The notes beneath the pieces were generated by a model. The model was not told the DNA's origin. It saw only the letters and a program-made list of their open reading frames with translations, and ran no database searches. Made by a program: the position numbers and the translations under genes. Below are positions 26,545 through 40,287 of a DNA stretch of 64,000 nt, one piece after another (position 1 is the stretch's first letter; every line of letters begins with the position of its first letter). Source of the DNA: Saxibacter everestensis (GTDB lineage: Bacteria > Actinomycetota > Actinomycetes > Actinomycetales > Brevibacteriaceae); assembly GCF_025787225.1 (NCBI RefSeq), contig NZ_CP090958.1:3334550-3398549 (forward strand), read 5' to 3'.

Positions 26545-26630
26545 GTCCGCCAGCAAAAACACGCTCTAGGTCGTGGCGTCGAAGTCCGCCAGCAAAAACG
26601 CTCTAGGTCGTGGCGTCGAAGTCCGCCAGC
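26545..26630. repeat. Tandem duplication of the FadR-type gene's 3' end
   Basis: A 39-base unit (26545-26583) and a 37-base unit (26584-26620) are nearly identical; a third partial copy (from 26621) is inside the coding sequence. The unit includes the last nine codons and stop of the regulator gene plus a few downstream bases, so one extra silent copy of the gene tail lies beyond the stop. Confidence 0.9.
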
Positions 26631-27343
26631 AGCCGCTTGGACGCAGACGCCATGTGCTTCGTCATTGCCGCGGCAGCAGCGTCCGGGTCCCGCTCCTTCA
26701 GCGCTTCGAGCACCTTGGCGTGCTCCTGCACCGCGATCTCTGCATGTCCGCTGTCCTGCAGCGCGCGGTCCACCCAGATTCGCAGCAAGGAGCGGATGCT
26801 CTGCAGTAGCTCCTGTAGCACCTGATTGCCGGAACTGACCGCGATCTCGCGATGAAACAAGGAATCAGCCTCGACGAACGCGGAAAAATCACGCCCACTG
26901 TGGGCCATCGAGTCCAGGCAGTCGGAGAGCGTCACAAGCGACTCGTCGGTAATCCGGGTCGCGGCGAGTTCGACGGCTTGCACCTCGAGCCCGCTGCGCA
27001 GTTCGACCAGCTCCCGGGTCCGCGGCTCGCCGAGCATCAAACCCCAGCTCAGCGTGCGCGGTAGCAGTTCAGAGACGCCATCGCGAAGATAGGTGCCCGA
27101 TCCCGGACGAACAATCACGATACCGAGGATCTCCAACGCGGCGAGCGCCTCCCGCACGGCGGAGCGGCCAACGCCCAGCGAGGCGGACAGCTGTCGCTCA
27201 GACGGCAGGCGCGTCCCGGGCGCAACGTCGCCGCTGGTGAAATACGCCATCAGCCGCTCGGCTACCTCGGACACAGCCGAACCGCTCTGCACCGTGCCGA
27301 GGGCAGCACTGATCCGCGCGGCGGCGACATCCGGAGTCCTCAT
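26603..27343 (-). CDS. GntR-family regulator (FadR/FCD subfamily)
   Basis: A 246-residue regulator. The winged helix includes GTRLPSERQLSASLGVGRSAVREALAALE, and the wing is VRPGSGTYL. The FCD domain shows DSLFHREIAVSSGN and VQEHAKVLEAL (metal-site Asp/His). ATG 27343 is used; GTG 27349 is equally possible. It is divergent from the MFS sugar-acid module, with the perfect palindrome at 27395-27408 between them as its likely operator. Ligands of this subfamily are typically hexuronates or other sugar acids. Confidence 0.92.
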   Translation of the reverse strand: MRTPDVAAARISAALGTVQSGSAVSEVAERLMAYFTSGDVAPGTRLPSERQLSASLGVGRSAVREALAALEILGIVIVRPGSGTYLRDGVSELLPRTLSWGLMLGEPRTRELVELRSGLEVQAVELAATRITDESLVTLSDCLDSMAHSGRDFSAFVEADSLFHREIAVSSGNQVLQELLQSIRSLLRIWVDRALQDSGHAEIAVQEHAKVLEALKERDPDAAAAAMTKHMASASKRLLADFDATT

Positions 27344-27394
27344 GGTCACCGGATAACAGTACCAACTTGCGGCCTGCCAAAGACCCTTATTTCA

Positions 27395-27432
27395 GTCAAC
27401 CGGTTGACCAATTGCTGAATCAGGCTTATGTT
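27395..27432 (+). promoter_or_regulatory. Promoter with perfect operator for the MFS module
   Basis: GTCAACCGGTTGAC (27395-27408) is a perfect 14-base palindrome. TTGACC (27404-27409) within it, 17 bases, then TATGTT (27427-27432) forms a promoter for the rightward operon, so binding would cover the -35. The leader to 27547 is about 108 bases and shows no other motif. Confidence 0.6.
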
Positions 27433-27546
27433 TGTGCCCAGGTAGCTCGCCGGATCGACTCGACGACGCCGCAGCGAACAGAACGGGCATCCGCCGCTAT
27501 CGACGCGTACATGGTGGGTGGCTCAGCCAAATCTGAGGGAGTCAAC

Positions 27547-28902
27547 GTGGACACCACACAGTCAGCGGTCGAAAGATCGGCAATCAAAAAGGTGGCGATC
27601 CGGCTAGTGCCGTTCGTCGCCCTGATGTTCTTCATCAATTACCTGGATCGGACGGCGATCTCGTTCGCCGCCCCGAACGGAATGAACCAGGATCTCGGCC
27701 TAACCGCGGCGCAATTCGGCTTCGCCTCCGGCGTGTTCTTCATCGGGTACATCCTGCTGGAAGTGCCCAGTAACGTCGCCCTGCACAGGTTCGGCGCCCG
27801 CCGCTGGCTGGCCCGCATCATGGTGTCCTGGGGAATCGTCTCCCTGCTCTTCACCTGGGTGCAGAACTCCGAGGGCCTCTACATCCTGCGTTTCCTGCTC
27901 GGCGTGGCCGAAGCCGGATTCTTCCCGGGCGCCATCCTGTTCCTCAGCCTGTGGGTGCCGGCCAAACACCGCAGCAGGGTACTTGCCCTCTTCTATCTGG
28001 CCCAGCCGCTCACTACCGTGATCGGCGCTCCGCTGGCCGGTTTGCTAATCGAGCAGCACGGCGTCTTCTTCGGCCTGGAGGGCTGGCGCTTCATGTACTT
28101 CGGCGTCGCAATCCCGGCGATCGTCATCGGCATCGTGGCGTGGTTCTACCTTGCCGACCGCCCGGCCGACGCCAAGTGGCTGACCGCGGACGAAAAGACC
28201 TGGCTCACCGCCGCACTGGAAAAGGAGTCGGCAGCGAAAGCCTCGAACACGCACGGTGGCGCACTGAAGGCACTTGCCAACGGACGGGTGTGGATGCTGG
28301 CCCTGATCTACTTCGGCTTCATCTACGGTCTTTACGCGCTGGGATTCTTCCTGCCCACCATCATCGAAGGCTTCGAATCGCAATTCGGCACGTCCTTCAA
28401 TGTCTTCCAGAAGGGGCTGATCACGGCCATTCCTTATCTGCCTGCCGCGTTCGTGCTGTACTTCTGGTCCAGGGACGCCACCCGGCGCGGGGTCAGGACT
28501 TGGCACATCGTGGTGCCTGCGATCGTCGGCGGCCTGAGCATACCGGTCGCATTGTTCATGAACAGTCCTGCGGCAACCGTGGCCGTGATCACAGTGACCG
28601 CATGCGCGATATTCGCCGCCTTGCCCAACTTCTGGACCATACCAACCAGGTTCCTCACCGGTGCCGCGGCCGCCGCCGGCATCGCGCTGATCAACACGGT
28701 TGGCAATGTCGCCGGATTCGCGGCTGGATACGTCACCGGCGCACTGAAGGACCTGACCGGTGCATACATCGTGCCGATGTTCGTTGTCGGCGGGTTCATG
28801 CTGCTGTCGGCGCTGCTGATGACAGTACTTTCCCGGCGCGGCCGGGTCGCCGAGGATGCGACATCGTCTGCGGACGTGCAGTCGTCTGCGGGATCACGAT
28901 GA
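27547..28902 (+). CDS. MFS transporter, anion:cation symporter (sugar-acid type)
   Basis: A 451-residue, 12-helix MFS protein. The family signature FINYLDRTAISFAAP is in the first helix, and RFLLGVAEAGFFPGAI in helix 4 is the hallmark of the GudP/tartrate-type ACS group. GTG 27547 follows GAGGGAG at ideal spacing; upstream in-frame starts lack a ribosome site. It imports a carboxylate sugar. Its stop overlaps the next gene's start (ATGA). Confidence 0.92.
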   Translation: MDTTQSAVERSAIKKVAIRLVPFVALMFFINYLDRTAISFAAPNGMNQDLGLTAAQFGFASGVFFIGYILLEVPSNVALHRFGARRWLARIMVSWGIVSLLFTWVQNSEGLYILRFLLGVAEAGFFPGAILFLSLWVPAKHRSRVLALFYLAQPLTTVIGAPLAGLLIEQHGVFFGLEGWRFMYFGVAIPAIVIGIVAWFYLADRPADAKWLTADEKTWLTAALEKESAAKASNTHGGALKALANGRVWMLALIYFGFIYGLYALGFFLPTIIEGFESQFGTSFNVFQKGLITAIPYLPAAFVLYFWSRDATRRGVRTWHIVVPAIVGGLSIPVALFMNSPAATVAVITVTACAIFAALPNFWTIPTRFLTGAAAAAGIALINTVGNVAGFAAGYVTGALKDLTGAYIVPMFVVGGFMLLSALLMTVLSRRGRVAEDATSSADVQSSAGSR

Positions 28903-29696
28903 GTGCGATCGGTCTGAGCAGCTACGCATTCTTCTGGCAGATGTCCGATCGGATGTCGGCGCCGTTAACCTTGCCGCAGGCACTGGAGAAGACCCGGGAG
29001 CTGGGCATTGATGTCTTCCAGATCTGCGACTACCAGCCGATCGAGGCAATGACCGACCCGGAACTTGCCGAGATCCGTAACCTCGCCGATTCGCTCGGTA
29101 TCAGCCTGGAACTCGGCACAAAGGGCATTCGACCGGAGCACCTGCGCCGGTTCCTGCACATTGCCGAGCTACTGGAGGCGCCTCTGCTGCGCACGATGTT
29201 CGCGGTACCCGACCATACGCCGGACATCGACGAGGCCACGTCAGTTCTTGCCGACGTTCTGCCGGAGTTCAACGAGGCAGATGTGCGAATAGCCATCGAG
29301 ACGTATGAGCAGGTACCGACCGCGGACGTGCTCGAGGTGATTCGCCGCATCGACGACCCCCGGCTAGGCATCTGCAGCGACCCCGCCAATACAGTCGCCG
29401 CACTCGAAGCGCCGACCGCGGTCATCGACGCCGTCGCCCCGCACGTGCTCAATATGCACGTCAAGGACTTCGCCTTCCAACGCAGGGACGGCTGGGTCGG
29501 TTTCAGCCTAACCGGCGCGCCGCTCGGCGAGGGGCTCCTCGACTACGACTACATGGCAGCAGCCATTCAGCCCGCGGCCCGCGATATCAATCAGATCATC
29601 GAGCATTGGCTGCCGTGGCAGGGCTCCGAACAAGAGACAATCCGGCTGGAGAACCAATGGACCCAGCAGAGCATCGACTACCTAAGGAGCAAGTGA
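28899..29696 (+). CDS. Sugar-phosphate isomerase/epimerase-like TIM barrel
   Basis: A 265-residue protein of the xylose-isomerase-like/AP-endonuclease-2 barrel. Metal-ligand acids occur in the expected places: Glu in RIAIETYEQ, Asp in LGICSDPANT and His in LNMHVKDFAF. It probably isomerises, epimerises or decarboxylates the imported sugar acid after oxidation. ATG 28899 overlaps the transporter stop; the next gene starts two bases after its own stop. Confidence 0.85.
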   Translation: MSAIGLSSYAFFWQMSDRMSAPLTLPQALEKTRELGIDVFQICDYQPIEAMTDPELAEIRNLADSLGISLELGTKGIRPEHLRRFLHIAELLEAPLLRTMFAVPDHTPDIDEATSVLADVLPEFNEADVRIAIETYEQVPTADVLEVIRRIDDPRLGICSDPANTVAALEAPTAVIDAVAPHVLNMHVKDFAFQRRDGWVGFSLTGAPLGEGLLDYDYMAAAIQPAARDINQIIEHWLPWQGSEQETIRLENQWTQQSIDYLRSK

Positions 29697-29698
29697 GA

Positions 29699-30556
29699 AT
29701 GTCTGCAGCACAAGTGAACGTCACCGTGATCGGAGCCGGCGGAAAAATGGGGATGCGCGTCTCCGCAAACCTGCAGAAGAGTGCCTATCAGGTGCGCTAC
29801 AGCGAGAACTCGCCAGCCGGCCAGGAGCGAGTGCTGGGCGAAGGACGCGAGATCACCGACACCGCGGCCGCCATCGACGGCGCGGATGTGGTGATCCTGG
29901 CCGTGCCGGATACGGTGCTCGGCGTCGTCTCTCAGGAAGTTGTGCCGCAGATGAAGGGCGGTTCCACCCTGCTCACCCTGGATCCGGCGGCGGCGTATGC
30001 GGGACTGTTGGCGCAGCGTGAGGACGTCACCCCGGCCGTCGCCCATCCCTGCCATCCATCGGTATTCCTGGAGCGCTACACAAAGGAAGAGTACGAAGAC
30101 ACCTTCGGCGGCGCCGCCGCGCCGCAGAACGTCGTGGCGGCGATCGAGACCGGTGATGCCGCGAAGCAGCAGGCTGTCGAGGACGTGATCAAAGTGATCT
30201 ACGCACCGGTTATCGACGTGCACTGGGTTACCGTCAAGCAGCTGGCAGTGCTGGAACCAACACTGGTCGAGACGGTTGCCTGCATGATCGGCACACTGCT
30301 GAACGAGGCGCTGCACGAGACGGTGCACACAGTCGGAGTGCCGGAAGCCGCCGCGAAGGCCATCCTGTTCGGTCATGTGCAGATTGCGCTGACCAACGCG
30401 CTGCGCGGCTCCAACCCGTTCTCCGAGGCCTGCGAGATTGCCATCCAGTACGGCAAGGACACCATCATCAAGGATGACTGGAAGAAGATCTTCGACGACA
30501 GCGAGCTGGACCATGTCATCGGGAAGATGCTCAAGCTGGAGGACGTGCGGAGCTAG
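29699..30556 (+). CDS. NAD-dependent dehydrogenase with phosphogluconate-dehydrogenase-type C-terminus
   Basis: A 285-residue dehydrogenase. The N-terminal Rossmann motif is VTVIGAGGKMGMRVSANL, followed by the helical C-terminal domain of the PGDH_C type (VKQLAVLEPTLVETVACMIG, EAAAKAILFGHVQIALTNAL). The family acts on sugar acids or their keto forms. With the transporter and TIM-barrel gene it forms a three-gene catabolic module. Reaction order is not obvious. Confidence 0.85.
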   Translation: MSAAQVNVTVIGAGGKMGMRVSANLQKSAYQVRYSENSPAGQERVLGEGREITDTAAAIDGADVVILAVPDTVLGVVSQEVVPQMKGGSTLLTLDPAAAYAGLLAQREDVTPAVAHPCHPSVFLERYTKEEYEDTFGGAAAPQNVVAAIETGDAAKQQAVEDVIKVIYAPVIDVHWVTVKQLAVLEPTLVETVACMIGTLLNEALHETVHTVGVPEAAAKAILFGHVQIALTNALRGSNPFSEACEIAIQYGKDTIIKDDWKKIFDDSELDHVIGKMLKLEDVRS

Positions 30557-30581: not shown

Positions 30582-31754
30582 TCAGGCTGCGAAGTAGTCG
30601 AGAGCTGTGAGGGCAAGGGCAGTGGCTCCATCGGTGATCGCTTGGTTGGCCGCCTCCCCGATGCAGTAGGCCTCGAACTCCGGCTGGTGGTTCGCCGCTG
30701 GGTAGCATCCAAGACCGATATATGGATGGATGGCCGGCACGACCTGGGAGACGTTGCCCATATCGGTCGAGGCGCGATTCATCGTCGCTTGTTCGGCCGG
30801 TGCGTCGAAGTTTCTGCCGAGGCCCCGGGCATGCTCCCGATAGAGTTCCAACGCTCGATTGTCAGTACGAAACTCCGAATACGGCTCAGACTCCGGCGTG
30901 CTGGTCAGCTCACATCCAGTTGCCAAAGCTCCGGCCTCGAAACAGCGATCGATGCGGGGCTGGAGGCGCTTCAGGTCTTCCAATGTCTCGGCGCGGACGT
31001 ACCAACGTCCCTCGGTCTTCTCCGGGATCGCATTGGGCGCCTCGCCTCCCCGGGTCTGCAATCCGTGGACGCGAGTTCCGGCGGGCAGTTGCTGGCGGAG
31101 CAGTCCAAGGGCGACCTGGGCGACGAGGAACGCGTCGTTCGCGTTCACCCCTCGATCCGGGTAAGCGCCGGCGTGCGCTGACTTTCCCTGATATTCGATG
31201 TGGCTGTGGGAGACGGCAAAAGGACGTGCCTCGGCAGAATCCACCGGGCTCGGGTGCGCCATCATCGCGAGGTCGAGGTCGACGAACGCACCCTTGTTCA
31301 GAAGTTCGATCTTTCCACCCCCGCCTTCCTCGGCTGGGGTGCCATAAACCTCGATCGTGAGATCACGTTCGTCGGCGAACTCGGACAGAGCGATAGCAGC
31401 CCCGACCGAGATCGCGGTGATGATGTTGTGCCCACAGGCGTGGCCGAGCCCGGGAAGCGCGTCGTACTCGGCCATCAAACCGATCCGGTGGCTGCCGTTC
31501 CCGGCCACGGCGTGGATGGCGGTCGGGAAGCCCAGGTACGCCCTCGTGACGGCGAATCCGTGGCTGGACAGCGTTTCTGCCGTCCAGCTGGCCGCCTGGT
31601 GTTCCTGCCAACCAAGCTCCGGGTGCGCATGGAGTCGCTCGGACAGTTCGACCAGGGCAGCCGCGTGGGCGGCAACATTCGCCACTACACGGGAACGCGC
31701 CGCTACACGGGAACGGTCAGAATCATCGCCGCGCAGGTTCTCGTCATCGATCAT
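30582..31754 (-). CDS. M20-family amidohydrolase (AbgB-like)
   Basis: A 390-residue zinc amidohydrolase. The metal-ligand motifs are visible: GLGHACGHN (near 100), TPAEEGGGGK (near 136) and MMAHP, with the catalytic-domain ending H-P in AIHPYIGLG. The lid/dimerisation domain holds SHIEYQGKSAHAGAYPDRG. It is closest in style to p-aminobenzoyl-glutamate hydrolase and N-acyl amino-acid hydrolases. ATG 31754 overlaps the preceding stop by 11 bases. Codons near 31680-31715 are an 18-base tandem repeat (SRV-A/V duplication). It is the last gene of the FMO operon, presumably removing an acyl group by amide hydrolysis. Confidence 0.92.
   Translation of the reverse strand: MIDDENLRGDDSDRSRVAARSRVVANVAAHAAALVELSERLHAHPELGWQEHQAASWTAETLSSHGFAVTRAYLGFPTAIHAVAGNGSHRIGLMAEYDALPGLGHACGHNIITAISVGAAIALSEFADERDLTIEVYGTPAEEGGGGKIELLNKGAFVDLDLAMMAHPSPVDSAEARPFAVSHSHIEYQGKSAHAGAYPDRGVNANDAFLVAQVALGLLRQQLPAGTRVHGLQTRGGEAPNAIPEKTEGRWYVRAETLEDLKRLQPRIDRCFEAGALATGCELTSTPESEPYSEFRTDNRALELYREHARGLGRNFDAPAEQATMNRASTDMGNVSQVVPAIHPYIGLGCYPAANHQPEFEAYCIGEAANQAITDGATALALTALDYFAA
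31680..31715. repeat. 18-base near-perfect tandem duplication in the amidohydrolase gene
   Basis: Two adjacent 18-base units differ at one base (CGCCACTACACGGGAACG then CGCCGCTACACGGGAACG). They fall in the N-terminal helix, where they duplicate a short RSRVAA segment. Confidence 0.85.
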
Positions 31755-32415
31755 CGCCAGGAACTCCGTATCCGCCCGCCGATGCGGGATCCAGCCCGCG
31801 GGCCACGTAGTCTTCCCGCTGCGGCATCCAGACTTGGAGGAGCCGCTCGAGTTCCCCGACGGGGTCGTCGTGCCAGTCCACACGCAGGTCCGTGTCTCGC
31901 CATCCGTGGCCCGAGACGACTGAAACGCCGGCAGAGTGAACCGGTCCCGCCTCACCCCCGGCCAGGAGCCCGGCCCGGAGTCCCGCCACGAGGCGAACCT
32001 CCAGGTCTCCGGCAGTCGCGTCGAATGCATCACAGACTGCCGACGGCACATGCTCGTTGTCCAGCATGTTGCCTGCACTCACGCACAGCGAGCCACTGGC
32101 TTTCCCATACGTGCCCAAAGTGTGGGATCCGCTGAAGACGGCAGATCGCCCTTGGGAGTCGAGGACAACGAGCTGCCGATAGTCCCGCGTCTCCTCCATC
32201 GAGACCAGCCGGTCGATCGACTCCGATGCCGACAAGCCATCTTCGAGGTACGACAGCAGGATGTCGCCGAGTCGAGGGTCCGTGATGTTCTGTGAGCTCA
32301 CGGCGCCGACGTTGTCACGAAGGTGGATGCACCGCGCCGCGACTGCCGGCGAGGATGATGAGACCGCGATTCCGAATCGACCACTGGCGTCGGTTCCCGC
32401 GATGCTGAACGTCAT
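31744..32415 (-). CDS. DUF1028 N-terminal-nucleophile hydrolase
   Basis: A 223-residue protein of the DUF1028 Ntn-hydrolase family. MTFSIAGTDASGRFGIAVSSSSPAVAARC is diagnostic; Thr2 would become the nucleophile after Met removal. The central DPRLGDILLSYLEDGLSASE and the SVCAGNM-like SLCVSAGNMLDNEHV are conserved in the family, whose substrate is unknown. It overlaps the Rid gene (ATGA) and the amidohydrolase (11 bases), so the four proteins are probably made together. Confidence 0.93.
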   Translation of the reverse strand: MTFSIAGTDASGRFGIAVSSSSPAVAARCIHLRDNVGAVSSQNITDPRLGDILLSYLEDGLSASESIDRLVSMEETRDYRQLVVLDSQGRSAVFSGSHTLGTYGKASGSLCVSAGNMLDNEHVPSAVCDAFDATAGDLEVRLVAGLRAGLLAGGEAGPVHSAGVSVVSGHGWRDTDLRVDWHDDPVGELERLLQVWMPQREDYVARGLDPASAGGYGVPGDDR

Positions 32416-32834
32416 GCGTCCGCCTCTCCCGACAGAACCGCGGTCACGTCGATCTCAACCAGCCATTCGGGCCGCGCCAGTGCATCGACGACGAGACCAG
32501 TCGAGACCGGGTAGACGCCCTTGAGCCATTTGCCCATGGTGCGGTACACCGGCTCCCGGTACCGGATGTCGGTCAGGTAGACCACAACCTTGACAATGTC
32601 TTCCAGAGTGCCGCCGGCCTCCTCCATGAGCATGGCGATGTTGCTCATGGCTTTCTCGGCCTGCGCTTCGACATCGCCGATGCCGACCGACTCCCGACTG
32701 TCGAGGTCCTGGCCGATCTGTCCCCGGAGATAGACCACACCGTTGGCTACCACGGCTTGGCACAGGTCGTTGTCCAGGCTCTGTTCCGGATAGGTCTTCT
32801 TGGTGTTGAACGGGCGAATTCTGGTGTGTTTCAT
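32412..32834 (-). CDS. Rid-family (YjgF/YER057c) protein
   Basis: A 140-residue chorismate-mutase-like trimer-forming protein. Rid features are visible: YPEQSLDNDLCQAVVANGVVYLRGQIG, EAQAEKAMSNIAMLMEEAGG, and VKVVVYLTDIRYREPVY. The position of the Arg needed by archetypal RidA for imine hydrolysis reads Ser in YPVSTGLVV, so this belongs to a different Rid subgroup and may act on another intermediate. Its start overlaps the monooxygenase stop (TGATG). Confidence 0.92.
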   Translation of the reverse strand: MKHTRIRPFNTKKTYPEQSLDNDLCQAVVANGVVYLRGQIGQDLDSRESVGIGDVEAQAEKAMSNIAMLMEEAGGTLEDIVKVVVYLTDIRYREPVYRTMGKWLKGVYPVSTGLVVDALARPEWLVEIDVTAVLSGEADA

Positions 32835-34162
32835 CAGCGGATCCTTTGTTCTTTAAAGGTTTCGGAAGGGGTTGTTCCGGATGGCTGCCTCGCCTGCGTA
32901 GACCGAGTCGCATCTGAAGGTCCGTAGTCCAGATATCCCCGCTGGATCATGATGTGGTCGGCCAGGTAATTGGCATCGTGCCAGACCCCCCAGATGAAGC
33001 TCGAACCGCGCCTCGATTGCCAAGGTAATCCCAGGAAGTAGACACCGGGCTCGGACGACACGCCGCGCTGGTGTTTCGGCCGGCCATTCTCGTCCGTCGC
33101 ATCGACATTCAGCCAGCTGTAATCGACGGCGAAGCCGGTCGCCCAGACAATCGACGTGACTCCGGCGTCAGCGAGATCGAGTTCGAGCAGTGGGTTCGTC
33201 ACGCATTCCGCGTCGGGCCCCAGGTTGCGGGCCTCCGGTTCCTCGGGGAGATCGAGGCCGTTACGTTCGATGTAGGCGTCGGCCTCGTCGAGCAGCGATA
33301 GGTAATTGGCGTCGCCCCTGGCGATGTTGTCGCCGAGATCAGGTGCGAAGCGCATGGTCGGGCTCTGGTATGACTGGGCACGGCCAACGAGCTGGATGCC
33401 GCTTGCGGCGAGGCTGCGGAAGTCGACTGTGTGGCCGCCGTTGGCCCCGCTGACCGAGATCGTGACGTGTTCGGCGCCCTGCGGCGGGGCGGAGGCATCC
33501 CATTTGTTGAGGACTCCGAGCCACCAGACGAAGTCACGCCCGCGGTAGCTACGCGGAGGCCGGTCATGTGGGCCTACTGCAAGGTAGACCTGTCGACCCG
33601 AATTCTGGAGTTCATCGGCGATCTGCACCCCAGAGGACCCGGCTCCGACCACGAGGACGGCACCCTCGGGCAGCTGTTGCGGGTTGCGGTAGGAGCTGGA
33701 GTGGATCTGCTGGATGTCCGCCTCGTGGGGAACGAGAGCCGGGATGACCGGCCGCTGGAAGGGGCCGGTTGCGGCCACCACGTAGCGTGCGTCGATGGTT
33801 CCCTCCGACGTCTCCAGGTGAAAGCCGGGCCGGCCGACGTTCTTACGAACGGAAGTCACCTCGACGCCACAGCGAATCGGCGCGTTGATCTTCTCTGCGT
33901 ATTTCACGAAGTAGTCAGCTACCTGCTCCTTCGAGGCAAAGGCGTCGGGGGCGACATCGCTGAACTCCAGGTTTGGGAAACGATCGTGCCAGACCGGCCC
34001 GTTCGCCACCAGGGAGTCCCACCGCCCTGAGCGCCACCGCTCGGCGATCCGGTCCCGCTCCAGAACCAGGTGCGGCACACCGCGGTTGCTCAAGTGCTCG
34101 CTCATCGCTACACCGGCCTGACCCGCGCCGACGATGAGGACTTCAATCTCTTGGTTCGACAT
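32834..34162 (-). CDS. Flavin-containing monooxygenase
   Basis: A 442-residue FMO-class protein. The FAD-binding motif is VLIVGAGQAGVAMSEHL, and the NADPH-binding motif VLVVGAGSSGVQIADEL. The linker region GPFQRPVIPAL and WATGFAVDYSWL match the class that N- or S-oxygenates, or carries out Baeyer-Villiger chemistry. ATG 34162 has upstream GGAG; GTG/ATG 34174 is possible. It is the first gene of the FMO-Rid-DUF1028-M20 operon and probably makes the first oxidation of an unidentified nitrogen compound. Confidence 0.92.
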   Translation of the reverse strand: MSNQEIEVLIVGAGQAGVAMSEHLSNRGVPHLVLERDRIAERWRSGRWDSLVANGPVWHDRFPNLEFSDVAPDAFASKEQVADYFVKYAEKINAPIRCGVEVTSVRKNVGRPGFHLETSEGTIDARYVVAATGPFQRPVIPALVPHEADIQQIHSSSYRNPQQLPEGAVLVVGAGSSGVQIADELQNSGRQVYLAVGPHDRPPRSYRGRDFVWWLGVLNKWDASAPPQGAEHVTISVSGANGGHTVDFRSLAASGIQLVGRAQSYQSPTMRFAPDLGDNIARGDANYLSLLDEADAYIERNGLDLPEEPEARNLGPDAECVTNPLLELDLADAGVTSIVWATGFAVDYSWLNVDATDENGRPKHQRGVSSEPGVYFLGLPWQSRRGSSFIWGVWHDANYLADHIMIQRGYLDYGPSDATRSTQARQPSGTTPSETFKEQRIR

Positions 34163-34270
34163 CCTTGTCTCCACTCCTATAGCCCCGTGTCTCTAAGTCT
34201 CGGGTCGGCGTGAAACGGATGGCAAATAGCGGCTAATGAGGATGGCCATCAAAAATACAGATGTAAGCTG

Positions 34271-34300
34271 CCTTGTGGGATCGATAGCACATGTGCAAGG
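34271..34300. promoter_or_regulatory. LysR-type dyad between FMO operon and LysR gene
   Basis: CCTTG (34271) and CAAGG (34296) are the outer ends of an interrupted dyad with CACATGTG inside its right arm, about midway in the 196-base divergent intergenic region. This is the usual place for a LysR activator site. The assignment is weak because arms are short. Confidence 0.3.
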
Positions 34301-34358
34301 CCTAGGCAGACGGCCGCACCGCCCGCTACATCCGTGAAGCCTAGAGAGCCGGGGAGTT

Positions 34359-35267
34359 ATGCCAAAGGCCCAGAGCGCCCTCACACTCAGCCAGATCAGG
34401 TACTTCGTGCGGACAGCCGAGCTCGGATCGATGACCGCGACGGCGGCGGAGATGTACGTGGTCCAGTCCGCCGTTTCCACCGCGATCGCGCAGCTGGAGA
34501 CGACGGTCGGCTGCAAGCTCTTTATCAGGCAGCGAACCCGAGGGGTGGTGCTGACCGAACAGGGGCGGACGTTCTACGCGGCCGCTCTGGGCATCCTTAA
34601 CGCCGTCGATGACGCCATCGATTCCCTCGAGCCGGAACGACTGACGGGTTCCCTCGTCGCCGGCTGCTTCACTACCCTCGCGCCGTTCTGGCTCCCGAAG
34701 GTCTTTGAAAGACTCCGGTCCAACTACCCTGACCTGAACGTGAGGATCCGGGAGGTGACAGGTGAGCAGGTGGAGCAGCTGCTGCATCAGCGAGAGATGG
34801 AAGTCGTCCTGACCTACGGCTTCGACTACGGTCGCGACATCGACTTTGTGCAGCTGAGCGAGGCTCCCCTGTACGCCGCTGTCTCGGAGGACAGCCATCT
34901 GGCCGGGCGAGAGTCGGTCTCGCTGGAAGAGTTGGTCTCCGAGCCCCTCATCCTGCTGGACATGGGGAAGAGCACCAACTACTTCCTCTCGATCTTCCAC
35001 GACGCGCACCTCCGGCCTCAGGTTCACCAGAGGTTTGAGAGCTACGAGGTCGTGCGCTCCATGGTGGCCCGCGGGCATGGCTACACCATCCTCAACCAGA
35101 GACCCGCCCATGACCTGACCAACGACGGCGGCCGCATCGTCAGGCTCCGCATTGCCGGCGTGAGGTCCTACCTCCAGGTCGGCGTGGCCCACCGGAACGG
35201 TGAACCGCTGTCTCGCAAGGGCCAGGCGTTCGTCGACGAGTGCCGCGATCTCCTGTCGCACGGATGA
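34359..35267 (+). CDS. LysR-family regulator
   Basis: A 302-residue LysR protein. The helix-turn-helix is LTLSQIRYFVRTAELGSMTATAAEMYVVQSAVSTAIAQLE; effector domain motifs include LTGSLVAGCFTTLAPFWLP and the late MVARGHGYTILNQRP. It is divergent from the FMO operon and upstream of the MHS transporter, so it likely controls both. It resembles the second LysR at 36870, especially in the C-terminal YEVVRSMVARGHGY against YEVLRGLVARGVGY. Confidence 0.93.
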   Translation: MPKAQSALTLSQIRYFVRTAELGSMTATAAEMYVVQSAVSTAIAQLETTVGCKLFIRQRTRGVVLTEQGRTFYAAALGILNAVDDAIDSLEPERLTGSLVAGCFTTLAPFWLPKVFERLRSNYPDLNVRIREVTGEQVEQLLHQREMEVVLTYGFDYGRDIDFVQLSEAPLYAAVSEDSHLAGRESVSLEELVSEPLILLDMGKSTNYFLSIFHDAHLRPQVHQRFESYEVVRSMVARGHGYTILNQRPAHDLTNDGGRIVRLRIAGVRSYLQVGVAHRNGEPLSRKGQAFVDECRDLLSHG

Positions 35268-35422: not shown

Positions 35423-36766
35423 ATGGACGACATCGCAAGCATGAACTACGAAAGTGCCCGCAAGGGGCTCAAAAAGAACGTGGCCGCCGGGGCCATCGGG
35501 GTGCTCGTTCACTGGTTCGACTGGGCGATCTACGCCTACCTGGCGACGACGATCGCCGGCATCTTCTTCCCGCAGCAGGACGAGACGGCTGCACTGCTGT
35601 CCGTCTTCGGTGTGTTCGCCATCGCCTTCTTCGTCCGTCCCATCGGGTCGATTCTCTTCGGACACCTCGGCGACACCCTCGGGCGCAAGAAGACACTGTC
35701 CCTTGTCATCGTCGTGATGGCTTCGGGAACGCTCCTGCTTGGCTTGCTCCCCTCCTACGACTCGATCGGCATCTGGGCACCAATCCTGCTCGTCGTTGCC
35801 CGCATCATCCAGGGGATTGCCGCCGGCGGCGAGTTCGGCTCAGCCGCGGCCTTCCTGGCGGAGTACTCGCCGCCGAAACGGCGCGGCTTCGGCTGCTCGT
35901 GGATCGAGTTCGGTTCGGTGCTGGGCTTCCTACTGGCGTCGATGGTCGTGGCCGGGATGTTCGCTATCTTCACGCCGGAGCAGATCGATTCCTGGGCGTG
36001 GCGCTTGCCATTTCTCATCACAGTGCCCCTGGCGCTGGTGGGCCTCTACATCCGGATGAAGATCGAGGACACTCCCGAATACCAGGCACTCCAGGCGCTC
36101 GACACCGTGCCGGTCGCGCCCATTCGCGAGGTGTTCCGCCGGAACAGCAAGCAGTTCTTTCAGACGATCGGCATCGAGATCTTCATGAACTGCACGTTCT
36201 ACGTGGTGCTCGTTTACCTCATCACCTATCAGGAGCAGTTGGTCGGTCTGACGGCCGGAGAGGCAGCGGTGCTTTCCACGGTGGCATCGCTGACGGCGAT
36301 CGCGATCATTCCGCTCTCGGGGATCGCCTCCGACCGATTCGGGCGCAAGCCGGTGCTGACCACCGCGGGCGTGCTCCTTGTCCTGCTTGCTTATCCTCTT
36401 TTCGCGTACATGAATCAGGGCACAGTGACGGCCGGGTTCCTCTCGACCTTCGGGCTGGCAGCTATCCTGGCCCTCATCCTCGGCACGCATGCGTCCACCG
36501 TTGCCGAGCTCTTCCCAACCCGCACCCGCCAGAGCGGCCTGTCCATGGCCTACAGTGTCGCCGGCGCCTTCTTCGCCGGGACTCTGCCGTACGTGAACAC
36601 CTGGCTGATCGGGGTGACGGGCAATGAAATGGTGCCCGCCTTCACCCTGATGGCGGTGGGCGCGGTCGGCCTGATCACCATCTCCACCATCCCGGAGACC
36701 CGCGGCGTGAATCTGCTCCACGAATCGGACACCCGCGTCGATTCAGCCAGTCGAGACCGGGGCTGA
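35423..36766 (+). CDS. MFS transporter, metabolite:H+ symporter (MHS) family
   Basis: A 447-residue MFS protein with 12 helices. The MHS hallmarks are visible: FDWAIYAYLATTIAGIFFP in helix 1, RPIGSILFGHLGDTLGRKK and RIIQGIAAGGEFGSAAAFL. Family members carry shikimate, citrate, proline/betaine and other acids with protons. ATG 35423 follows GAGGAG. A short palindrome GTGTT-G-AACAC lies at 35368-35378 in its promoter. It is probably the importer for the substrate of the FMO operon. Confidence 0.93.
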   Translation: MDDIASMNYESARKGLKKNVAAGAIGVLVHWFDWAIYAYLATTIAGIFFPQQDETAALLSVFGVFAIAFFVRPIGSILFGHLGDTLGRKKTLSLVIVVMASGTLLLGLLPSYDSIGIWAPILLVVARIIQGIAAGGEFGSAAAFLAEYSPPKRRGFGCSWIEFGSVLGFLLASMVVAGMFAIFTPEQIDSWAWRLPFLITVPLALVGLYIRMKIEDTPEYQALQALDTVPVAPIREVFRRNSKQFFQTIGIEIFMNCTFYVVLVYLITYQEQLVGLTAGEAAVLSTVASLTAIAIIPLSGIASDRFGRKPVLTTAGVLLVLLAYPLFAYMNQGTVTAGFLSTFGLAAILALILGTHASTVAELFPTRTRQSGLSMAYSVAGAFFAGTLPYVNTWLIGVTGNEMVPAFTLMAVGAVGLITISTIPETRGVNLLHESDTRVDSASRDRG

Positions 36767-36869: not shown

Positions 36870-37796
36870 GTGATCATCACCCTTCGACAGCTCGAGTACT
36901 TCGCGATGGTTGCGGACCAAGGTACCGTCACTGCGGCAGCGCAGCAGCTCTACCTGTCCCAGTCTGCGGTGTCCAACGCGATCGCAGACCTGGAGCGACT
37001 GCTCGACGTGAAGCTGTTCGTCCGGCATGCACGCGGCCTCTCGCTGACTCGGGAAGGGCGGGCAGTGCTCAGCCAGGCCCAGTTCCTCCTGCGGGACGCA
37101 GCAGATCTCGAGCGCAACGCGGCCATACTGGGCGACGACCTCTCCGGCACCCTGAGTGTCGGGTGCTACTCGACAATCGCCCCGTTGCTGCTGCCGCGCG
37201 TCGTGGCCGACTTCGCCACGAAGCACCCCGGCGTCGATGTGCAGTTCGCGGAGGGTTCCCGCAGCGAGTTGCTCGAAGACCTGACCCTGGGTCGCTATGA
37301 CGTCCTGGTCCTCTACGACTACCGGTTCAAGGACGACCTCTCCGAGATCGGACAGTCGACGCCTCTGGGCTCCATCCCGCCATACGCGTTGCTGCCTCCT
37401 GAGCACCGGCTGACCGGGTGCGGCCCGGTCGCACTCGCGGATCTCGCGGCGGACCCGTTGATCCTCTTCGGACTCGAGCCTGCCGACCAGTACTTCCTCT
37501 CCCTTTTCGAGTTGGAGGGGCTCACCCCCAATGTGCGTTACCGCACCGGAAACTACGAGGTGCTCCGCGGGCTTGTGGCACGCGGGGTCGGATACTCGCT
37601 GCTCACCCAGCGCACCCGCCAGACGACCAGTTACGAGGGTCTCGCTTACTCCGCCGCCGAACTCGAGGGCAACTATGAGCCCCTAGGCGTGATCGCTGTC
37701 ACCCCGAGCCGGCATAGGCTTACTCGTCGGGTGGACGCCTTCGTCAACTCGGCGACGGCTGTCTTCGCCGAGGCCCCGACCTATGATCAGGAGTGA
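36870..37796 (+). CDS. LysR-family regulator, paralogue
   Basis: A 308-residue LysR protein with GTG start and GAGGGG upstream. HTH: LRQLEYFAMVADQGTVTAAAQQLYLSQSAVSNAIADLE. It follows the MHS transporter on the same strand and resembles the LysR at 34359 (YFLSLFELEGLTPNVRYR against YFLSIFHDAHLRPQVHQR). Two related LysR genes flanking one transporter suggests duplication within a substrate-sensing locus. Confidence 0.92.
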   Translation: MIITLRQLEYFAMVADQGTVTAAAQQLYLSQSAVSNAIADLERLLDVKLFVRHARGLSLTREGRAVLSQAQFLLRDAADLERNAAILGDDLSGTLSVGCYSTIAPLLLPRVVADFATKHPGVDVQFAEGSRSELLEDLTLGRYDVLVLYDYRFKDDLSEIGQSTPLGSIPPYALLPPEHRLTGCGPVALADLAADPLILFGLEPADQYFLSLFELEGLTPNVRYRTGNYEVLRGLVARGVGYSLLTQRTRQTTSYEGLAYSAAELEGNYEPLGVIAVTPSRHRLTRRVDAFVNSATAVFAEAPTYDQE

Positions 37797-37892: not shown

Positions 37893-38858
37893 CTATCCCT
37901 GCACCGGGTTAACCGGTTGCCCTCCCCGAAGCACTTGGGCGACATCCCGGACAACCGCCTCGCCCATAGCAGCGTTCGCGCCGTCACTGAAGGCGCCGAT
38001 ATGCGGTGTCAGCACGAGATTCGGAGCCGTGAGCAGCGGGTCATCGGCACGCAGGGGCTCGGTGCCGAAGGCATCCAGCGCGGCGAAGTCCAGGTGGCCT
38101 GCGTGCAGCAGCTCCGCCAGTGCCGTCTCGTCCACCAGGCCACCACGCGCCGCATTGACCAGTCCGGCGCCTCGGGGCATCATCTCAAGCAGGTCCCTGG
38201 TGAGCAGCGGCTGATCGCCCGGCCCAAACGGCATATGCAGTGTGACGAAATTGCTGATCGCAACACAATCCTCAAGTGAGACCGAGCGGACGCCGGCAGC
38301 GTCGAAGTCCGCTGCCGGTACGAACGGGTCGTAGCCGACCAGTGTCAGCCCGAACCCGTGAGCCCGCTGAGCCACGCAGCGCCCAATTCGTCCGAAGCCC
38401 ACGATCCCCAGGGTCTTGCCGCGAAGTTCCTGCCCAAAGAATGTTGTCCACTGCCCCGCACGCAGCGAAGCGTCCGCCTGGACAATTCTGCGTGCCGAGG
38501 AAAGCAACAGCCCCATCGTCAGGTCTGCCACCCCATCTGCATTGGCACCCGGGGCATTGACGACCGCGATGCCCATGTCCGCGGCTGCCAACAGATCGAT
38601 ATTGTCGGTCCCCACCCCATGCTTGGCCACCACTTTCAGGCTTGGGGCGGATTCAAGTACCGAACGATCGACGCTGTCGAGGCCGACAATCACGCCTTCC
38701 GCGTCGCCGATCACACTGACCAGGTCCTGGCCAGACAGCGGGTGCCCTTCCGTCTTCCACACCAGGCCCAGGTCTTCCTGCTTCGCGGTTTCGATCGGTC
38801 GCTTCGAGTGCTTTGCGAACGACGGGGTTGTTACCACTACGGGGCCGAGAGGAGGCAT
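37893..38858 (-). CDS. D-2-hydroxyacid dehydrogenase
   Basis: A 321-residue NAD-dependent dehydrogenase. The cofactor motif is GKTLGIVGFGRIGRCVAQRA (near 145); catalytic residues appear as Arg in VNAARGGLVDE, Glu further on, and His in LVLTPHIGAFSDG. It oxidises or reduces 2-hydroxy acids such as glycerate, and here presumably a product of the adjacent HpcH aldolase. The start ATG 38858 follows the transporter stop by one base (TGAGATG). It is the end of the leftward acid-sugar operon. Confidence 0.92.
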   Translation of the reverse strand: MPPLGPVVVTTPSFAKHSKRPIETAKQEDLGLVWKTEGHPLSGQDLVSVIGDAEGVIVGLDSVDRSVLESAPSLKVVAKHGVGTDNIDLLAAADMGIAVVNAPGANADGVADLTMGLLLSSARRIVQADASLRAGQWTTFFGQELRGKTLGIVGFGRIGRCVAQRAHGFGLTLVGYDPFVPAADFDAAGVRSVSLEDCVAISNFVTLHMPFGPGDQPLLTRDLLEMMPRGAGLVNAARGGLVDETALAELLHAGHLDFAALDAFGTEPLRADDPLLTAPNLVLTPHIGAFSDGANAAMGEAVVRDVAQVLRGGQPVNPVQG

Positions 38859-38859
38859 C

Positions 38860-40287
38860 TCACTCTCCTCCAATTCCAACGCCGAACACCTTCAGCGTGG
38901 AGTAAATGCCCAGCGCCGCGATGGCGAAACTGCTGAGTACCAACGCGATGGTGAAAACCCGGTTCCGCTTGAAGCGAGGTGCCACCTCTGTCGCACGCAG
39001 ACGCCAGACGGCGATCACCACCGCAATCAGGAAGATCCCGCTCGCAATACCGCCGATCTGCACCATGATGACTGGCGACTGAATGAGGAGGAAGCTGATG
39101 GCCCAGATGATCGGGAAAACAATCGTAAGTACCCGGATGGTGCGCTGGCGAGACTTCAGATCCTTCCAGTCGATCACCCCGAGCAAACCGAGCGTGTTCG
39201 TCCAGAGTCGGGGCACGCTTGCGCTTGAGGCGACGAAGGTCGAGCCGAGCACGGCGACCGCACCGATCAGGAATGCCCACATCGCCCAGCCGCCCATCGT
39301 GTCGGTGTACATTCTCGACAACGTGGTGATCATCTCGTTGCCTTCGGGCACCAGTCCCTGCGGATGCAGGATCGCCGCACCGATGATGTAGAACGACAGC
39401 GTGCACAGAGTAGAGACGATCCAGGATACGAGCACGTCGGTGCGCATCACCCTGATCCAGCCTTCCGCGCGGCGGGCACGATTTTCGCTGCCGTCATCCG
39501 GACCGGTCCACCGGGCGTACCCCTTTTCCAGGCACCAGTAGGTGTAGGTAGTCATCTCATCCGCTCCGACTCCGGTGATTCCGAACATGGCGACTGCGAA
39601 ACCGATAGTGCCGGCCGGGATGGCGAGGCTAAGCCCGCTGGCCAGGTCGGCGCCGGTGTAGGCGAAATCGGTCAGCGGCAGGGCTAATGCGAGCCCGACA
39701 GTGATGACGGTGAACAGCACGACCGCGACGAGAGAGAATCGTTCGACGATCCCGTACTTGCTGGTGGACAGCAGGGTAATGACGAGCGCTACCGTAACGA
39801 CCGTCCAGAAGATCAGCGATGGCTGGCCGAGTGGTTCGCCAATCACCGGGGCCATGATGCTCAATGCGGCCACTGTGCCGCCAATTATGCCGCCGCGCTG
39901 CAGAACCTTGGCGAAGTCCATCAGAATCCAGAGCATGTTGATCCAGCCGACACCACGAACCTTGGTGCCGACCTGGCTGAATCCCTCGAGCGCTGTCTTA
40001 CCGTTGAGGATCGTCCACTGCGCAAGTTCCATCTGCACCCAGACCTTGATCGCGGTACTGATGATCACCAGCCACAACAGGACGAAACCTGCTTTGGCGC
40101 CCAGCGCCGTGGTCGTAATCAGCTCCCCGGAACCGATTACCGCCGCCGAGATAACCAGGCCCGGCCCCAGATACTTCAGCCGCCCGCGAAATGTTGTCGG
40201 CGGCTCGACCGCGTCTGCAGGGTCGAGCTGATACGGGTCGACCGGGGTTTGGAGCGGGTTGCGCTTAGCGGATGTCAACTCTGACAT
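38860..40287 (-). CDS. Nramp-related transporter lacking the metal-site motifs
   Basis: A 475-residue, 11 to 12-helix protein. Overall it is Nramp-like (LKYLGPGLVISAAVIGSGEL), but the canonical metal-ligand DPGN in helix 1 reads SGEL, and the helix-6 MPH region reads GADEMTTYTYWCLEKGYARW. Metal transport therefore looks unlikely. It sits between an aldolase and a hydroxyacid dehydrogenase in an acid-sugar operon, and no other transporter exists in the regulon, so I infer it imports the organic substrate. Confidence 0.85.
   Translation of the reverse strand: MSELTSAKRNPLQTPVDPYQLDPADAVEPPTTFRGRLKYLGPGLVISAAVIGSGELITTTALGAKAGFVLLWLVIISTAIKVWVQMELAQWTILNGKTALEGFSQVGTKVRGVGWINMLWILMDFAKVLQRGGIIGGTVAALSIMAPVIGEPLGQPSLIFWTVVTVALVITLLSTSKYGIVERFSLVAVVLFTVITVGLALALPLTDFAYTGADLASGLSLAIPAGTIGFAVAMFGITGVGADEMTTYTYWCLEKGYARWTGPDDGSENRARRAEGWIRVMRTDVLVSWIVSTLCTLSFYIIGAAILHPQGLVPEGNEMITTLSRMYTDTMGGWAMWAFLIGAVAVLGSTFVASSASVPRLWTNTLGLLGVIDWKDLKSRQRTIRVLTIVFPIIWAISFLLIQSPVIMVQIGGIASGIFLIAVVIAVWRLRATEVAPRFKRNRVFTIALVLSSFAIAALGIYSTLKVFGVGIGGE

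Follow-up and report, generated by a model that had tools for sequence, protein, structure and literature searches.

We analysed a 64,000-nucleotide stretch of Saxibacter everestensis DNA (contig NZ_CP090958.1, positions 3,334,550 to 3,398,549; hereafter the window), in which an operon on the minus strand, running from 34174 to 30582, encodes a flavin monooxygenase (FMO), a Rid-family protein, a DUF1028 protein and an M20-superfamily hydrolase. This operon is very probably of the hinFLHG type and would specify the lower histamine pathway, from imidazole-4-acetate to L-aspartate. The assignment is based on gene content, gene order, conservation, homology, the predicted fold of the DUF1028 protein, and the presence of other pathway genes in the genome. 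The pathway itself is known; the novelty is modest and lies in the exchange of the last enzyme for an M20D type, the exchange of the oxygenase for an HpaB/HpaC type in other genomes, and the assignment of one branch of DUF1028 to the N-terminal nucleophile (Ntn) hydrolases.

A probable hinFLHG-type operon

The FMO gene (32834..34174, minus strand; Pfam Pyr_redox_3, 3.5e-28) encodes a HinF-like protein, by homology an imidazole-4-acetate monooxygenase (EC 1.14.13.5). Its GTG start lies at 34174, and an in-frame ATG at 34159 is equally likely. A one-base overlap (TGATG) joins it to the gene for the HinL-like Rid protein (“enamine deaminase”; 32412..32834, minus strand; PF01042, Ribonuc_L-PSP, 2.4e-21), which shares four bases (ATGA) with the gene for the HinH-like DUF1028 protein, a predicted Ntn hydrolase (31744..32415, minus strand; PF06267, 1.8e-58). 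The last gene, encoding an M20D-type zinc amidohydrolase (30582..31754, minus strand; Peptidase_M20, 1.6e-11, with an M20 dimerisation domain; TIGR01891), overlaps its predecessor by 11 bases. The coordinates, overlaps and Pfam matches thus confirm the four overlapping genes and their families as given in a preliminary description of this DNA. The G+C content is 64% for the operon versus 63% for the window.

That description had regarded the pathway as a candidate undescribed one. Instead, hinFLHG of histamine/imidazole-4-acetate degradation comprises these four families in identical order, and the DUF1028 protein, said to have no established substrate, corresponds to HinH, termed an amidase. 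In Pseudomonas putida U, the hin2 cluster is hinFLHG and converts imidazole-4-acetate to aspartate. The P. aeruginosa counterparts, PA5393–PA5390, rise by 8–11 log2 units with histamine, through HinK. The window operon resembles both in its four functional classes, in the order FMO–Rid–DUF1028–M20 superfamily, and in a HinK-type LysR regulator. It differs in ending with an M20D enzyme, where Pseudomonas has an ArgE type, and in having regulators and a transporter adjacent; for the upper pathway, an amine oxidase in S. everestensis contrasts with the HinC aminotransferase in Pseudomonas. Pseudomonadales genomes carry FMO–Rid–DUF1028–ArgE in that order, and the window proteins share 47–69% identity with these clusters overall: ~60–69% for FMO and Rid against Pseudomonadales proteins, and 62–69% for FMO against the FMOs of clusters with Rid and DUF1028.

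Among actinobacteria, Brevibacterium L261, S111 and S22 grow on histamine (PMC6467879). Their homologues, with published identities of 48–65%, were named HinF FAD-monooxygenase (EC 1.14.13.5), HinL enamine deaminase, HinH amidase and, as a further amidase, HinG (EC 3.5.1.8) (PMC6467879). The Brevibacterium hinD, H, L, F and I homologues have neighbouring locus tags and a histamine-oxidase homologue is present, which recalls S. everestensis; unlike in our proposal, which gives the HinG role to the operon’s own M20D, HinG was assigned outside the cluster (PMC6467879). Transcripts of Brevibacterium hin homologues have been detected in cheese rinds. On a plasmid of Arthrobacter sp. ERGS1:01, the gene order is aldehyde dehydrogenase (ALDH), primary-amine oxidase, TetR, LysR, FMO, Rid, DUF1028, M20 and aspartate ammonia-lyase, which reads as a route from histamine through imidazole acetaldehyde and imidazole acetate to aspartate and fumarate.

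Conservation of the gene cluster

Searching 247 genomes of the same class for the DUF1028 protein gave two groups of matches: 12 relatives at 49–63% identity over the full length, and many at ~40% or less that, a few fragments excepted, end near residue 195–200. All 12 close relatives lie beside Rid and M20 genes, most of them with FMO within the short loci fetched. In the distant group, no partner gene was found at any of the 17 loci examined.

A scan of named genomes yielded 80 loci with DUF1028 relatives from Actinobacteria and Proteobacteria, which are not independent (several are from Leucobacter, for example) and some of which lie on short contigs; 20 other DUF1028 loci of similar size served as controls. 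Neighbour genes at the relatives’ loci were found by tblastn. Rid occurred within 10 kb of DUF1028 at 80/80 related loci. FMO was present at 60, LysR at 59, M20 of the window type at 48, ALDH at 36, MHS (metabolite/H+ symporter) at 22, aspartase at 18 and a histamine-oxidase-like amine oxidase at 13, and each of these genes, Rid included, was found at 0/20 control loci. With loci that are not independent, P values serve as a rough indication, but the contrast is complete and far from chance; the families, for which rare adjacency elsewhere would have spoken against a shared pathway, are constant neighbours. The exact 4-base Rid–DUF1028 overlap recurs at 43 of the 73 measurable loci, and the overlaps of 1, 4 and 11 bases are repeated in an Arthrobacter plasmid cluster (L114). 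The earlier suggestion of one co-expressed catabolic operon is supported: the set recurs in hundreds of bacteria and is conserved alongside a regulator and, frequently, a transporter.

A second scan started from FMO and covered 194 Pseudomonadales genomes. Relatives of at least 55% identity were accompanied by Rid and DUF1028 at 7/7 loci examined, and those of 41% or less by neither at the 6 loci examined, within the ~1.5 kb fetched per side. The trait is patchy within the taxonomic family of S. everestensis: of 59 genomes searched, 15 others have this DUF1028 gene or one closely related to it, mostly in one genus. On 105 Klebsiella plasmids there are also DUF1028 matches reaching 1e-20 or better; the one such region examined (CP107226.1, L113) carries FMO–Rid–DUF1028–ArgE with ALDH, a GMC oxidoreductase and a cytosine permease.

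Candidate pathway genes elsewhere in the genome

From its homologues, the genome appears to encode the whole route from histamine to fumarate. An amine oxidase gene (55% identity to an Arthrobacter protein) directly adjoins an ALDH gene (59%) at 2.74 Mb, and the pair sits between an amino-acid-permease-like and a cytosine-permease-like gene. An aspartase (57% identity, above the TIGR00839 cut-off) is encoded at 0.46 Mb. A second amine oxidase–aldehyde dehydrogenase pair (51% and 44%) lies at 3.692–3.708 Mb (L133) and is perhaps for another amine.

The DUF1028 and Rid proteins

The predicted structure of the DUF1028 protein (mean predicted local distance difference test score, pLDDT, 90.5) has an Ntn-hydrolase fold, with structural matches to 2imh (Z 30.8), Taspase-1 (Z 16.6) and HslV (Z 12). 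Residue 2 of the model superposes on residue 1 of HslV and of proteasome beta subunits, and Thr2 is invariant (80/80 loci), so that Thr2 would become an exposed nucleophile once Met1 is removed. The model therefore predicts a proteasome-like Ntn hydrolase with Thr2 as nucleophile, and cleavage of a cyclic amide by such an enzyme would suit the imidazolone step. A full-text literature search on DUF1028 and a broad search on the family name returned nothing relevant. In the Rid protein, the catalytic arginine of RidA (Arg105 in E. coli RidA) is replaced by Ser in 74 of the 80 loci, by Cys in 4 and by Phe in 2. Hydrolysis of a formimino C=N bond could still be within the reach of such a protein.

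Proposed exchange of the first and last enzymes

The window M20 protein scores 197.6 bits against TIGR01891, over the cut-off of 153.75, and is nearest to Xaa-Arg dipeptidase (PM20D2) and HmrA. Among the 80 loci, 48 carry M20D, 16 carry ArgE, none carries both and 16 carry neither, several of these last being on short contigs. Elsewhere in the S. everestensis genome there is no close ArgE-type HinG, the best match having ~30% identity over partial length. Given this mutual exclusivity and the lack of a close genomic ArgE-type protein, the simplest reading is that M20D performs the HinG step here, as a proposed N-formyl-L-aspartate deformylase. An ArgE-type HinG is a feature of the proteobacterial operons and not of the pathway.

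At the other end of the operon, an HpaB-type oxygenase, in many cases accompanied by an HpaC/RutF-like flavin reductase, lies beside Rid–DUF1028 at 9 loci where FMO is absent (L057, L059, L061, L065, L086, L087, L088, L098 and L111); another is found at L115:9405-11485. This two-component HpaB/HpaC-type oxygenase is likely a non-homologous replacement of HinF. A more general model, which we put forward tentatively as a serious possibility, is an invariant Rid–DUF1028 core with exchangeable ends (HpaB/HpaC for HinF, M20D for ArgE-type HinG), in which DUF1028 would be a new Ntn-type imidazolone ring-opening hydrolase, unrelated to HutI and working with a non-RidA-like Rid.

Adjacent regulators and transporter

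Divergent from the operon lies a gene for a LysR regulator (LysR 1; 34359..35267, plus strand), followed by genes for an MHS-type symporter (35423..36766, plus strand; TIGR00883, 388 bits, below the cut-off of 443) and a second LysR regulator (LysR 2; 36870..37796, plus strand), which flanks the transporter. The preliminary description had correctly counted the divergent LysR and the MHS transporter as completing the block and had overlooked LysR 2. The best PDB matches of both regulators are 3fzv and 6m5f, at 166 bits for LysR 1, whose identity to its best solved relatives is only ~32%, and 212 bits for LysR 2, which is 33% identical to LysR 1. Since the PDB title of 6m5f is HinK, the histamine regulator, both proteins would class as HinK-type by homology; this likeness supports the histamine link, although it is insufficient alone to prove the ligand. 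The symporter is a candidate importer of imidazole-4-acetate or histamine.

In Corynebacterium lemuris (L041), LysR 2 is retained next to MHS and LysR 1, with identities of 64–80% for the LysR–MHS–LysR block and 55–86% for the enzymes, which suggests that block and enzymes moved as one unit. The divergent intergenic region (34175..34358) is, by its position, presumed to hold the LysR operator and promoters. A comparison of this region between the window and C. lemuris gave no convincing common LysR operator motif, and a sigma-70 scan of it gave no site.

Proposed pathway and alternative explanations

We infer the individual reactions in S. everestensis as follows. Histamine would first be converted to imidazole-4-acetate by a copper amine oxidase and an aldehyde dehydrogenase whose genes lie elsewhere; the imidazole ring of this product would then be oxygenated by FMO (HinF) to give imidazoloneacetate. 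The DUF1028 protein (HinH) most likely opens the imidazolone at its cyclic amide, yielding N-formimino-L-aspartate, and the Rid protein (HinL) would then most likely hydrolyse the formimino C=N bond to N-formyl-L-aspartate and ammonia; this order of the two steps is itself putative. The M20D hydrolase, in the HinG role, would take off formate, and aspartase would convert aspartate to fumarate. Imidazole-4-acetate, which the MHS symporter may import, is presumably the signal for one or both of the HinK-like LysR proteins. The logic guessed in the preliminary description, namely ring oxygenation, handling of an imine-type intermediate and two amide cleavages, fits this scheme; its observations thus held, and its interpretation did so in part. 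Parallel chemistry, from imidazolone through N-formimino and N-formyl intermediates to an amino acid, is known from Hut histidine degradation (HutI, HutF, HutG), in which, unlike here, the end product is glutamate instead of aspartate and the enzymes are unrelated.

With this assignment, one branch of a Pfam family that is still classed as of unknown function acquires a likely biochemical role, and clusters annotated “FAD oxidoreductase, RidA family, DUF1028, M20” could be named as histamine/imidazole-4-acetate degradation in both actinobacteria and proteobacteria. The removal of histamine is of importance for the safety of food. In Brevibacterium, the assignment of HinG to a protein outside the cluster may be a consequence of the exchanged last enzyme.

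Several points weigh against the hinFLHG assignment. The window M20 shows no significant similarity to ArgE-type HinG by BLAST; as M20D stands in its place, we name the operon hinFLHG-type with the last enzyme exchanged. The RidA arginine is missing from the Rid protein, which makes its deaminase role uncertain, and the named P. putida HinF, HinL and HinH are linked to the window proteins only through the Pseudomonadales clusters and the published Brevibacterium identities. The window is without upper-pathway genes, the amine oxidase lying ~620 kb from the operon, and in C. lemuris the cluster is present with no amine oxidase detected. A pathway not yet described, for another N-heterocycle or an N-acyl amino acid and with hin-like enzymes recruited to it, would accommodate the M20D, which differs from ArgE-type HinG, and the MHS transporter, which is not a named hin gene. 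We consider it very improbable, given that orthologous clusters include amine oxidase, ALDH and aspartase, a set sensible for conversion of histamine to fumarate, that HinK is nearest to both LysR proteins among solved structures, and that FMO and Rid are so similar to the Pseudomonadales proteins.

A variant compatible with the hinFLHG assignment is that the operon serves external imidazole-4-acetate, taken up by MHS, and not the product of intracellular histamine oxidation. No amine oxidase was detected in C. lemuris, which has the same block, so imidazole-4-acetate itself may be the substrate under physiological conditions. In S. everestensis the transporter and two HinK-like regulators adjoin the operon, with the amine oxidase gene far away. 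The Arthrobacter amine oxidase and ALDH, however, adjoin the operon, and the S. everestensis genome has its own amine oxidase–ALDH pair flanked by two permease-like genes. We regard this variant as rather unlikely. A Nit1C-type (nitrilase, cyanide-related) module, brought to mind by the resemblance of FMO to TIGR04046, has a negligible probability: the score of 367 bits is under the cut-off of 498, and the neighbourhoods of close and distant FMO relatives divide as described above, on which grounds membership was rejected. Membership of the Rut system (rutA–G) was likewise rejected, as the Rid protein scores 40 bits against RutC, with a cut-off of 169. Rut shares with the hinFLHG-type operon a flavin oxygenase, a Rid-family protein and a hydrolase acting on a nitrogen ring, but differs in its enzyme families and substrate.

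Flanking genes

Adjoining the regulator–transporter block, at 37893-40287, are a D-2-hydroxyacid dehydrogenase gene and, overlapping it, an apparent NRAMP-like transporter gene; both lie outside the conserved neighbourhood. On the other side, the genes at 26603-30556, for GntR, a major facilitator superfamily transporter, a TIM-barrel protein (PF01261) and a PGDH_C protein (PF16896), resemble a separate sugar-acid operon, which we take to be possibly D-apionate-like.

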